From Alphaproteobacteria bacterium (GTDB lineage: Bacteria > Pseudomonadota > Alphaproteobacteria > RF32 > CAG-239), in contig JAGAJR010000023.1 in NCBI GenBank assembly GCA_017626035.1, positions 1 through 64,000 of the forward strand: DNA of 64,000 nt. The letters are read 5' to 3'. The position numbers and the translations under genes are program-made. Shown here piece after piece: positions 60,321 to 64,000 of the stretch. Under the pieces are notes generated by a model. The model saw only the letters and a list, made by a program, of their open reading frames with translations. It was not told where the DNA came from and made no database searches. Numbering within the stretch: the stretch's first letter is position 1; each line of letters starts with the position of its first letter.

Positions 60321-62159
60321 TTACATATTCCTGATTTTTTTACGCCATGATTTCACGGGGATTATTCCAGAAACTAGTTTAACCGCTTTTTTCCGTGCTA
60401 TGATATACTTCCTTTTAGGAAAGCAGATACTGACTTTGCCTATGTTGGCTCTAATTGTATCCAGTACATTTTTTGTTTTATCAGAAACACCAATATTTTC
60501 AATCATTTTAGCGATAGAATACAAATCATCCCATTTTAATTTGCCGGGAGCATATTCACATCCCAGCCCTTCAACAATACGAAAATTCTTTCGAATCATT
60601 CTGGTCTCTTTATATTTAGTCGCATTAACAGTAAATTGGTTATCTATCAGTTTCAGCTTAAAATCCTTGGTTAAAATAAAGTTTGCCGGACGGACATCCC
60701 GATGAACAAATTTGCAGCTCAATAAAGTTTTTGCAATATCTCCCAGCTGCATAACGATTATGTCCTTCTGTGATTGTGTCAGATTGTTTTCCTTAATTAA
60801 ATTCTCCAAAGAGATTCCTTCTTCGTAGTTCATTGCAATAAACTTTTTATTACCATCGCACTTATAAAACCACGGTTTGATAAAATTATCTGGATTCATC
60901 TTGTAAAAAAGCTTTGTATAAACAAACTCGTTTTTACATGTATCTCCAAGACCATTCCATTTAACAAACAATTTCTGTTCGTCTTTATAGCCTTGAAAAT
61001 AAATATATCCAGATGCCCCGTAATGATTAATCATTATGGGTTCAACATTTGACAGAAAATAGTTTTGTTCCAGATATTCGGCAATGTCTTCGGAAAGAAT
61101 GACTGTTTCATTATAGTAAACTGATTTATCCAGCGGTTTAGTAAAAACATAATGCTGTCTATACATAAATTCTTTTAAGAGCTTAAAATAAGCGTCAAAG
61201 GCATACGGATAATTCTTTACCCGTACCGAAGAATCCAATTTAAGGCGTAAAAACATATCCTCCGCCTTTTGATGATAATCATCTGCAATTCTGCTTTTAT
61301 GAATAATTGAATGATAAATCAGCAAATAAAACCTGTTTTCCAAATCAGGAGAATAAAAGCCGTTTTGCAATACTTTATGCTGCAAAATGTCTTTTTCCCA
61401 CTTCTTATCATAGTAATTTTTGCCGGTTTCCCAAATATCAATTAAAACTTTTTTCGTGCCAACGAGCACCTCATAATGGGGACGATGAACATTAATTTTA
61501 GGGATGCCTTTAATAATGTATACCGTCTCGGCATATTCTTCGGCAAGAATATCTATATCTCCGTGCTGTTCTGACGTTTCAAAAGTTTCTACATTTTCCA
61601 GCCCCCTTAAAACAACGTAATTTATTGTGTTATTTAAGGTATAGAACAATTCTTTCAGGCTTTTCCAACCATTACACCCCACCAGATCCTGCTCCCGTTT
61701 CTGGCATTTCCCATTCCATTGCTTGGGAGCAGATTTCAAATAATCTTCATAACCGATACCCAATAACAATGTGATATCATGATTGGTTTCCGTTATGCTA
61801 TTGGTGGCATGTATTTTATGCCCGCCATTTGTCCAAGTGCGATATTTCTCTTTGAGCCGGAAAATGTTCCGGTTAACATATTCATATCCGCGGGAAGTTT
61901 CCGCAAAATCATATTCAGGATGTTCATCCCAAACCGTTATCAACAAAAAACTCCCGTTGCCGCATTCTTTTTCTTTAACGGAATTATTCTCAAGCTTTAT
62001 TCCGTAAAATCGGGTAAAATTCTCAGCAACATTATTTTTGTTCCAAGCAATATCATAACATTCCAGAATTTTCAGATGTTTTTGAATATCTTCTAAAATC
62101 TCTTTTTCTTTATATCTGGCCCTTTCCCAAAGGACAATAAGATGCAGTTCTCCTTTCAT
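60321..62159 (-). CDS. Putative nucleotidyltransferase-kinase fusion (surface-glycan type)
   Basis: A 612-aa protein with three visible parts. An N-terminal ~150 residues are of unknown type. A nucleotidyltransferase-like region near 185-265 carries a DxD pair (Asp201, Asp203 in HGDIDIL). A C-terminal eukaryotic-type/LPS kinase fold (380-560) has Lys400 in LFVKWNG, the catalytic loop HRDVRPANF (His486-Arg487-Asp488) and metal Asp506 in LIDNQF. The kinase looks active. Similar layouts occur next to glycan assembly genes, but the real substrate is unknown. The start at 62159 is fixed by GAGGAGGT. A structured leader lies directly upstream. Confidence 0.8.
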   Translation of the reverse strand: MKGELHLIVLWERARYKEKEILEDIQKHLKILECYDIAWNKNNVAENFTRFYGIKLENNSVKEKECGNGSFLLITVWDEHPEYDFAETSRGYEYVNRNIFRLKEKYRTWTNGGHKIHATNSITETNHDITLLLGIGYEDYLKSAPKQWNGKCQKREQDLVGCNGWKSLKELFYTLNNTINYVVLRGLENVETFETSEQHGDIDILAEEYAETVYIIKGIPKINVHRPHYEVLVGTKKVLIDIWETGKNYYDKKWEKDILQHKVLQNGFYSPDLENRFYLLIYHSIIHKSRIADDYHQKAEDMFLRLKLDSSVRVKNYPYAFDAYFKLLKEFMYRQHYVFTKPLDKSVYYNETVILSEDIAEYLEQNYFLSNVEPIMINHYGASGYIYFQGYKDEQKLFVKWNGLGDTCKNEFVYTKLFYKMNPDNFIKPWFYKCDGNKKFIAMNYEEGISLENLIKENNLTQSQKDIIVMQLGDIAKTLLSCKFVHRDVRPANFILTKDFKLKLIDNQFTVNATKYKETRMIRKNFRIVEGLGCEYAPGKLKWDDLYSIAKMIENIGVSDKTKNVLDTIRANIGKVSICFPKRKYIIARKKAVKLVSGIIPVKSWRKKIRNM

Positions 62160-62200
62160 CTTAAACCTCCTCGGCAAGCCAATGAAGCATATTTTATCAA
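62156..62200 (-). CDS. Possible 14-codon leader peptide
   Basis: A TTG six bases after GGAGG opens a short frame (MIKYASLACRGGLR) that ends in a TGA overlapping the kinase start codon (ATGA). It could couple translation to the downstream gene. It is very short and starts at TTG, so this is tentative. Confidence 0.3.
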   Translation of the reverse strand: MIKYASLACRGGLR

Positions 62201-62216
62201 ATCAACCTCCTATTAA

Positions 62217-62243
62217 CAAAAAAGCCGCCGGATGAGGGCGACT
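62217..62243 (-). terminator. Intrinsic terminator in the leader
   Basis: The stem AGTCGCC / GGCGGCT (one G-T pair) encloses loop CTCATCC and is followed by TTTTTTG. It lies 58 bases before the kinase start codon. Confidence 0.65.
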
Positions 62244-62400
62244 GGAAGTTGGTAACTATACTTGAATAGTGCGACATATTGACTGAAATAGCGTATTTTG
62301 CCGCCTTCCAGTCATTATTATAGACTTTCAGGCGTGCAAAAGTTTCGTCTTTACACAATAGACGTCAAGTAAGAGGTTACCACACCTCAGACAAGTTATC
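62217..62400 (-). ncRNA. Structured leader RNA / putative transcription attenuator
   Basis: On the minus strand, hairpins GAGGT/ACCTC and CGTCT/AGACG come first. A perfect 9-bp pair GACTGGAAG (62313-62305) / CTTCCAGTC (62248-62240) follows. An intrinsic terminator AGTCGCC / GGCGGCT with a 7-base loop (62243-62223) comes next, followed by six T's. The 3' arm of the 9-bp pair shares AGTC with the 5' arm of the terminator, so the two structures exclude each other, which is an attenuator arrangement. It could instead be an independent small RNA ending at this terminator. Confidence 0.55.
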
Positions 62401-62563
62401 ATCTTATCTGTTATAAGAGTAATTTAATTCTACTATTTTGCAAGCTATTTTGTGATAAAAATGAAAAGATAAGTCGAGTTATAAAAAGAGATATTTAAAG
62501 TAATAAAAAAAGATTTTGAGAGATGAAAAAGGTAATAACTAATTAATATAAATTTTTTTATTA

Positions 62564-63148
62564 TTAACATTTATCTCGAATTTTTTCTATTATTTGTACC
62601 AATTTTTCTTTTTCATCTCCCATATTATCATGCAATCTTTGAACTATTTCTTTGAATTTCTTTTGATTTTCTGGATTTTGTTGTATGTTTTGGAGTAAAT
62701 ATGAAAACTTAGGGTATATATTCTCTTCAATATCATTATTAAATGCTTTTTTAAATTCACTCTTAAAATGTTGATCTACATTTCCTAACTTATTTGCAAT
62801 GATATTAAAAATTGTAGTTACATCTTCTTGGATACCTTCTACCTTTTGGGTTATTTTATCTAGACCATCGTTTATAGTCATCTTTTGAAGAATATCAATA
62901 TTGACTGTAGCTTCATCCATTTTTTCCAATTGATTGACCAAAGTATTTATGTAGATTAAATGTTCAATATCTTTATGCCGTTTTAAATGTTTTTCAAAAT
63001 ATCCATATAAACTTAATAATGCAGCATACCATGCAATCCAATCTATGCTTTTTATAAATTTAATCTTAGAAACAAAAACAAAATCTGCGATAAAAGGAAT
63101 AAAAGCAGCAATTATTAAAAGCAATAATAGAAGTATAAACTTTATCAT
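62564..63148 (-). CDS. Membrane protein with coiled-coil cytoplasmic part
   Basis: A 194-aa protein with two N-terminal membrane helices (about 4-25 and 33-50) followed by a long charged helical region (60-194), probably a cytoplasmic coiled coil. No family is recognised. It starts with ATG 63148 overlapping the STAS-like gene's stop (ATGA), so the two are translationally coupled. It is the third gene of an operon entering from the right edge. Confidence 0.72.
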   Translation of the reverse strand: MIKFILLLLLLIIAAFIPFIADFVFVSKIKFIKSIDWIAWYAALLSLYGYFEKHLKRHKDIEHLIYINTLVNQLEKMDEATVNIDILQKMTINDGLDKITQKVEGIQEDVTTIFNIIANKLGNVDQHFKSEFKKAFNNDIEENIYPKFSYLLQNIQQNPENQKKFKEIVQRLHDNMGDEKEKLVQIIEKIRDKC

Positions 63149-63453
63149 CTTGCACATTTCCAATCATCTACGCCAGATAAAATTTGTTTTTGTATAATCT
63201 CTCTTGCATTTTTAAAATGGTACTTCAAAAAAAACTTTTCTTCACCTAGTGCATCTAAGCTTTTAGAAAACAATCCCAGAAAAAATGATGGAGTAAATGT
63301 TACTATATAATCAGGAATAAGAACATCAATACTATCCGCATTTTTATCAAGTTCATCCAAACCAAATTTCTCTCTAGCATCCGCTCCCTTAACCTTACTG
63401 CCTAGAACAGTTGTTCTTCCTTGTGTTAATATCTCTAGATTAATTATTGTCAT
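63145..63453 (-). CDS. STAS-like (DUF4325-type) protein
   Basis: A 102-aa alpha/beta protein. The IDVLIPDYIVTFTPSFFLGLFS core is of the type found in the STAS-like DUF4325 family, where a strand is followed by a helix at a hydrophobic surface. STAS-like proteins often bind or are regulated by GHKL ATPases, and the gene before it is GHKL-like. It overlaps the previous gene by 14 bases. The family call is made from pattern memory and is tentative. Confidence 0.65.
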   Translation of the reverse strand: MTIINLEILTQGRTTVLGSKVKGADAREKFGLDELDKNADSIDVLIPDYIVTFTPSFFLGLFSKSLDALGEEKFFLKYHFKNAREIIQKQILSGVDDWKCAR

Positions 63454-64000
63454 TGTTTTTTACCTTTTTTTGTAAAGATTCAGCGTCTAACATAAATCGT
63501 GTTGTTATTATAGTTCCTGGAAATGCTTTTTGCAATAAATAGGCATATTTTTTATCCGGTGCAATTTTTTTATCTTGTTTTAAATTAAACCACTGGTAAT
63601 TTCTCTTATCATTTAATTTTACTGCATTTCCATATTTATCAGAAAATTTGACATAGACATTTCCTGATATTATAGCAATTTGAGGTTTTTCCTCTGAAAT
63701 AAATGTATCTCCTATTTCATTAATAAACTTCACCATTCTTAACATACCTATTCCTCCTCTGCTATCTTTATAATTCTCTCTGGTAGAACCATCCTGCAGA
63801 GCATAGACTGTTGCCAATATTTTTTGTGATACATTTTTGTGCATTTTTATATATGCATCTAATTCTTGTTTTACGGAATTATTTGTTGTTGATAAAATTG
63901 ATTCACAAATTGGCATACCTGTATTAATAAAGGAAAGGCTGCAAAAGTATTTTCCTTCTCTATATTCCATAAATGAAGTCATATACCAATTTCCTTCCTC
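63440..64000 (-). CDS. GHKL ATPase-like protein (5' end outside window)
   Basis: The frame is open to the window edge; 186 residues of the C-terminal part are visible. CSLSFINTGMPICESI resembles the ATP-binding N/G1-like box of GHKL ATPases (strand then NxG), and SRGGIGMLRM the G2-type glycine loop, followed by strands IAIISGNVYVKFSD. There is no HisKA dimerisation domain in the visible part, so this is probably a GHKL protein of the anti-sigma/defence type rather than an ordinary sensor kinase. It heads a tightly overlapping three-gene operon with the STAS-like and membrane genes. Confidence 0.7.
   Translation of the reverse strand, partial: EEGNWYMTSFMEYREGKYFCSLSFINTGMPICESILSTTNNSVKQELDAYIKMHKNVSQKILATVYALQDGSTRENYKDSRGGIGMLRMVKFINEIGDTFISEEKPQIAIISGNVYVKFSDKYGNAVKLNDKRNYQWFNLKQDKKIAPDKKYAYLLQKAFPGTIITTRFMLDAESLQKKVKNNDNN

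Follow-up and report, generated by a model that had tools for sequence, protein, structure and literature searches.

A probable self-targeting antisense-RNA leader of the phage C4/sRNA-Xcc1 type upstream of a kinase-like gene in Alphaproteobacteria

The C4 RNA of phages P1 and P7 is processed by RNase P and owes its specificity to the segment a' (summarised in PMC5320573). In the annotated phage P1 genome the elements follow one another in the order a1, b1, C4, a2, b2, icd; its sequence has b' (CACTAAC) in the third hairpin's loop and a' (CTGTCAA) adjoining the closing stem, the same order and places as in the leader family described here. IsrK of the Gifsy-1 prophage switches its own mRNA on in trans (PMC4825925). 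sRNA-Xcc1 was published as a small RNA and not as part of a leader (PMC2996969), and in Xanthomonas integron cassettes it is found upstream of symE (PMC12444791). The leader analysed in this work is probably a self-targeting antisense-RNA module of the phage C4/sRNA-Xcc1 type that is used by the chromosome to control its own gene.

The window, a stretch of 64,000 nucleotides (contig JAGAJR010000023.1), contains an RNA leader at 62408-62204 on the minus strand, on which all features given below are located. In this leader a perfect 9-bp stem formed by GACTGGAAG (62313-62305) and CTTCCAGTC (62248-62240) competes with an intrinsic terminator composed of GTCGCC-CTCATCC-GGCGGC followed by T6 (62242-62217); GTC (62242-62240) is common to the 3' strand of the stem and the first arm of the terminator. 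The initial annotation had described a strong minus-strand terminator and an overlapping 9-bp pair, and both are present, with no second terminator-like site within 61000-64000. The fold of the leader beat 200 of 200 shuffled sequences (z = -3.2). The element extends beyond that description: it comprises a promoter-like site predicted from the sequence (62416-62443; -35 TTGCAA at 62443-62438, -10 TACTCT at 62421-62416, spacer of 16 nt), a 5' hairpin beginning at 62408, and a Shine-Dalgarno sequence at 62211-62204. Promoter-like sites of a similar kind are predicted ahead of most copies of the family.

The gene that the leader would control (60321-62159) encodes a protein of 612 amino acids with a kinase-like C-terminal domain (PF03109 above the cut-off; PF00069, E = 5.6e-7; NCBIfam kinase matches were weak). 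Of the nucleotidyltransferase-kinase fusion initially assigned, the kinase-like region was recovered, and the only basis for the nucleotidyltransferase part is an HGDIDIL-like motif. A candidate upstream ORF of 14 codons with a TTG start (62156-62200) can be read from the sequence; its TGA and the main gene's ATG overlap, an arrangement that suggests translational coupling (cf. orf45-anrP of Gifsy-1). Upstream of the leader (62564-63982), three small ORFs gave no convincing Pfam or NCBIfam match.

From its 5' end, the leader starts with hairpin P1 (GATAAG..CTTGTC, 62390-62408), which has counterparts of differing sequence at the same place in nearly all copies. Hairpin P2 (62373-62388), 100% paired in 35 copies, carries the predicted target site a1 (GGTAAC, 62381-62376) in its loop and is followed by the second target site b1 (TACTTGA, 62365-62371) and by hairpin P4 (CGTCT..AGACG, 62346-62364; 99% paired, with compensatory changes). 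The C4-like domain begins with the 5' strand of the 9-bp stem, hereafter P6 (GACTGGAAG, 62305-62313), which would act as anti-terminator and is flanked 5' by a predicted RNase P site. P6 is arranged around hairpins P7 (62271-62304; strands 62304-62299 and 62276-62271) and P8 (CTAT..ATAG, 62256-62269), each 99% paired. The antisense site b' (TCAAGTA, 62265-62259) lies in the P8 loop and pairs with b1, and a' (GTTACC, 62251-62256), just before the 3' strand of P6, pairs with a1; these two upstream target sites with their copy-specific code had been missed in the earlier reading. The segment AACTTCCAGTC (62240-62250) combines the 3' strand of P6 (62248-62240) with an anti-Shine-Dalgarno sequence AACTTCC (62250-62244) and overlaps the 5' arm of the terminator (GTCGCC..GGCGGCTTTTTT, 62217-62242), with covariation both in P6 and between anti-Shine-Dalgarno and Shine-Dalgarno. 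The latter, AGGAGGTT (62204-62211), is complementary to the former. A competing hairpin, P5 (TTTTGCACGCC..GGCGGCAAAA, 62296-62341; 84% paired), pairs upstream sequence with the 5' strands of P6 and P7 and excludes both.

A BLASTN search against 55 relatives retrieved the first homologues, and the whole leader was matched in many genomes, often several times per genome. A covariance model built from 35 aligned cores detected the element in 108 of the 126 genomes of the window's family (15 of 16 genera); two of these genomes held at least 25 copies each. The model also detected it in 31 members of a sample of 385 Alphaproteobacteria, from approximately 17 further families. The genome of the window itself contains at least six copies, the maximum was about 29 copies per genome (genome G016), and 175 unique cores were gathered in total. 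A phylum-wide draw added no further clade. In genome G052 (L116 5015-5416, L145 and L146) copies were arranged in tandem or had no close ORF, and free-standing or decaying copies may accordingly exist; tandem copies, two ahead of one lipoprotein gene, were also observed at L038 (3019-3412) and L051 (285-649). The motif could stand unnamed in earlier microbiome-wide lists of candidate RNA motifs, the literature covered being open-access.

Covariation strongly supports seven helices, including the 9-bp stem and the two long-range pairings, as judged from the aligned sequences. In the 35 cores, 94.8% of the cells were standard pairs and 24 of 37 pairs were changed on both sides; none of 500 shuffles reached the observed helix values, pair types being the exception with 5 of 500, and a partner shift by one to three columns abolished pairing. 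P6 was 100% paired across the 35 homologues with changes on both sides in four of nine pairs, which is the covariation that the initial annotation had set as its own check, and in P7 five of six pairs were changed on both sides. For P5 a covariation score of 0.322 was obtained versus 0.200 in shuffles, a value that may be partly induced by the columns that P5 has in common with P6 and P7. An intrinsic terminator in competition with a conserved upstream stem is the layout of a transcription attenuator, and the attenuator-like leader of the initial annotation is supported by this covariation.

Comparison of the copies shows the helices, the leader position, and that P6 overlaps terminator and anti-Shine-Dalgarno in a mutually exclusive way. 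Two exclusive folds are open to the leader. In the OFF fold, P5 would sequester the 5' strands of both P6 and P7, the freed 3' strand of P6 would build the terminator, and AACUUCC would mask the Shine-Dalgarno sequence; in the ON fold, P6 and P7 would form, the terminator would be broken, and the Shine-Dalgarno sequence would be free. Minimum-energy folds favoured the closed terminator state in most examples, and folds forced to contain P6 lay 4-14 kcal/mol above the minimum, the pseudoknot energy being left out. The two pseudoknot duplexes together amount to about -15 to -20 kcal/mol with no penalty counted, and the leader therefore looks poised between both states.

The pairings of a1 with a' and of b1 with b' are maintained despite rapid sequence change. 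The a1/a' sites occurred in 53 sequence combinations, nearly all of them complementary, and in distant copies found by a model lacking a1:a' in its structure 302 of 315 a1:a' base pairs formed (shuffled control: mean 200, maximum 220). Among 164 copies, the helix value of b1:b' was 7.48 for self versus 4.34 for cross pairings (z = 53.5), and that of a1:a' 5.84 versus 3.71 (z = 36.3). The 29 copies of genome G016 contained 24 distinct b1 and 13 distinct a1 sites; just 0.4% of the cross pairs matched in both codes, and copies with a common b1 were mostly set apart by a compensated a1. The 14 copies of genome G104 showed the same code behaviour. Nine of ten within-genome pairs with an identity of at least 0.88 outside the code differed in a or b, and the 157-nt cores of the orthologs L079 and L081 (97% protein identity) differed at nine positions, all in b1/b'. 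Hypervariable codes that are orthogonal among paralogs suggest a self-specific action in trans, although compensated changes may occur at a high rate even with no selection for orthogonality, since b1 also changes quickly in between-genome pairs.

In the proposed mechanism, a single transcript would contain the targets a1 (P2 loop) and b1 and, further downstream, the C4-like domain with P6 around P7 and P8. This domain would hold the antisense sites that match the targets, with b' in the loop of P8 and a' between P8 and P6. By analogy to phages P1 and P7, we infer a trimming of the C4-like RNA by RNase P, with the cut at the 5' end of P6; the sequence RCY follows P6 in 158 of 175 copies, which is compatible with such a cleavage. 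The trimmed RNA would then act in trans on a1 and b1 of transcripts with the same code only, and each gene would regulate itself. We slightly favour that the free C4-like RNA represses, as in phages P1 and P4, over the opposite sign, a trans activation as by IsrK.

An unlikely alternative is a purely intramolecular attenuator in which a1/b1 and a'/b' fold the leader in cis and another signal (translation, a protein or temperature) shifts the balance of P5 and P6, with no RNA acting in trans. Every pairing is possible within one transcript, and the unconstrained minimum-energy fold of most examples nests a1:a', b1:b', P5 and the terminator, in agreement with the higher energies of the P6-forced folds. 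Such an attenuator leaves unexplained, however, why paralogs carry orthogonal codes and why the code changes in an otherwise identical core, as in L079/L081; moreover, the homologous phage systems work in trans (PMC5320573, PMC4825925).

The position of the copies relative to genes bears on whether the element is a free-standing small RNA, or a mobile repeat, that lies before a gene incidentally. Of the 175 copies, 164 had an ORF start no more than 130 nt away (median 51.5 nt), and in 90% of the copies with an ORF the start was located 34-68 nt past the core; the choice of the downstream ORF was mechanical. The anti-Shine-Dalgarno segment was complementary to the region before the start with a z of 11.7 above cross-pairings, and where it differed from AACUUCC the complementarity was still at z = 8.5, as exemplified by AACATCC with GGATGTT. 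The P6 3' strand either builds the terminator or base-pairs with the Shine-Dalgarno sequence, in place of a2/b2; downstream targets a2/b2 as in phage P1 were not clearly present (z = 2.2 and 3.1 versus cross-pairings). The initial annotation had named a small RNA with its own terminator as the alternative, and indeed the leader holds a C4/sRNA-Xcc1-like antisense domain, possesses its own promoter-like site and terminator, and has a few copies that stand in tandem or lack a nearby ORF (L038, L051, L116, L145). The reading as a free-standing RNA or mobile repeat is nevertheless very improbable in view of the ORF spacing, the covariation of Shine-Dalgarno and anti-Shine-Dalgarno, and a search of viral contigs with the core pattern, which gave no exact match.

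The downstream proteins fell into 70 unrelated clusters. By simple heuristics, lipoprotein signals were assigned to 21% of the cluster representatives versus 3.4% of 648 control ORFs, and N-terminal hydrophobic segments to 57% versus 29% of the controls. The largest cluster (43) includes pilin-like proteins; in genome G016 (L039-L055, L206-L218) a large pilin-like family (GRSMIEMLGVLAIIGVLSV) was observed with the leader ahead of many members.

At the gathering scores of Rfam 15, the window contained only a tRNA; the leader matched no family, in agreement with the earlier statement that no known riboswitch or T-box was recognised, and the window copy matched neither RF02221 (sRNA-Xcc1) nor RF01695 (C4). 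Weak matches in the window to Plastid-rpl20, DUF3800-IX, DLEU2_5 and SraG were judged as chance. In sensitive mode, eight of 20 relative loci matched RF02221 at the start of P6 on the same strand, all below threshold: the gathering score of 53 bits compares with 40.7 bits for the best alphaproteobacterial copy and 38.5 bits for the best copy of the window's own genome. L160 was aligned over the full RF02221 model (E = 8e-6) and gave the sole C4 match (RF01695, E = 0.004, 27.4 bits versus a gathering score of 45 bits). None of the copies tested reached an Rfam threshold, and the link of the window copy to sRNA-Xcc1 and C4 would run via these relatives, all below gathering scores. The E-values of the family covariance model are rough: it did not detect c4 of phage P1 and, with filters off, gave a spurious phage P1 match at 6e-4, and its matches to phage loci at approximately 2e-4 are weak by themselves given that value.

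P6 surrounds the two hairpins P7 and P8 as in sRNA-Xcc1, and a1 followed by b1 lies upstream of, and complementary to, a' and b' as in the immI-type arrangement of phage P1, although a2/b2 were not found at the downstream ribosome-binding site. Five phage, prophage or plasmid RF02221 loci above threshold precede genes for BRO, ORF6N, Ant or KilA-N; L204, L205, L235 and L236 contain a1:a' and b1:b' helices plus downstream target copies, and several of them a hairpin in competition with the closing stem, whereas in the phage locus L237 a1/b1 were not clearly seen. In L205 (462-1608), an E. coli prophage, isrK-C4 precedes a Rha gene and sRNA-Xcc1 then precedes an ORF6N gene, and this double module suggests that isrK corresponds to the a1/b1 portion of a C4 module.

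A metabolite riboswitch with P2-P8 as aptamer is highly improbable, since its conserved unpaired bases (AAUA...AAUA) recur in sRNA-Xcc1, its long-range contacts are hypervariable and, for all its up to about 29 copies per genome ahead of many genes, the 70 unrelated downstream clusters point to no pathway; the metabolite sensing initially considered is left without support, and a second-messenger riboswitch, an idea derived from the many copies before surface genes, was dropped after the C4/sRNA-Xcc1 match and the variable codes.

The proposed self-targeting antisense module links C4 and sRNA-Xcc1, two Rfam families not in one clan, by one topology, and suggests that sRNA-Xcc1-type RNAs may be parts of self-regulating leaders instead of stand-alone small RNAs. 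It has spread over bacterial chromosomes ahead of many envelope genes. More tentatively, and with slightly less than even confidence, we propose that Alphaproteobacteria converted an RNA of phage immunity into up to approximately 30 mutually orthogonal, self-addressed switches across the genome. Each switch would silence or release its own gene alone, mainly a cell-envelope gene, and the codes would be under diversifying selection. Dozens of orthogonal antisense/target pairs per genome would represent a natural library to study and build specific RNA regulation.

Among the known systems, the Group 1 C4-like sRNAs of Acinetobacter baumannii resemble the family in their many chromosomal copies with variable a' (PMC5320573), but are treated as phage-derived sRNAs with targets not assigned, rather than as leaders that have cis targets and orthogonal codes. 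The CI RNA of phage P4 with seqA/seqC is alike by description, as a processed antisense RNA binds its own leader upstream and causes premature termination (PMC4825925). IsrK/anrP of Gifsy-1 (RF01394) shares a short terminated RNA plus a readthrough mRNA, two alternative folds, a trans action on its own mRNA (here inferred) and a coupled short upstream ORF (PMC4825925); in contrast, IsrK carries a terminator of its own ahead of the downstream part, is a single prophage locus, and activates an antirepressor-like gene. With sRNA-Xcc1 (RF02221) the family has in common P6 around P7/P8, conserved AAUA segments, the position upstream of an ORF and, as observed in four of the five phage or plasmid members examined, an upstream a1 followed by b1; phage members of sRNA-Xcc1 differ in having a2/b2 and in preceding antirepressor-type genes, whereas the leader family remains below the Rfam threshold and has no antirepressor gene downstream, its 70 clusters being other proteins (kinase-like in the window). 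C4 of P1/P7 (RF01695) presents the same series of promoter, a1, b1, C4 (b' in a loop, a' by the closing stem) and ORF, and likewise a hairpin competing with that stem's 5' strand; phage P1 differs, however, in its longer closing stem and in having a2/b2 at the icd ribosome-binding site, while in the leader family terminator and Shine-Dalgarno pairing replace a2/b2 and phage genes are absent. The layout of antisense RNA and own target in one leader is already known from phage immunity; in gut and other Alphaproteobacteria it is found here ahead of ordinary genes, mostly of the envelope, and every copy has a code to itself.
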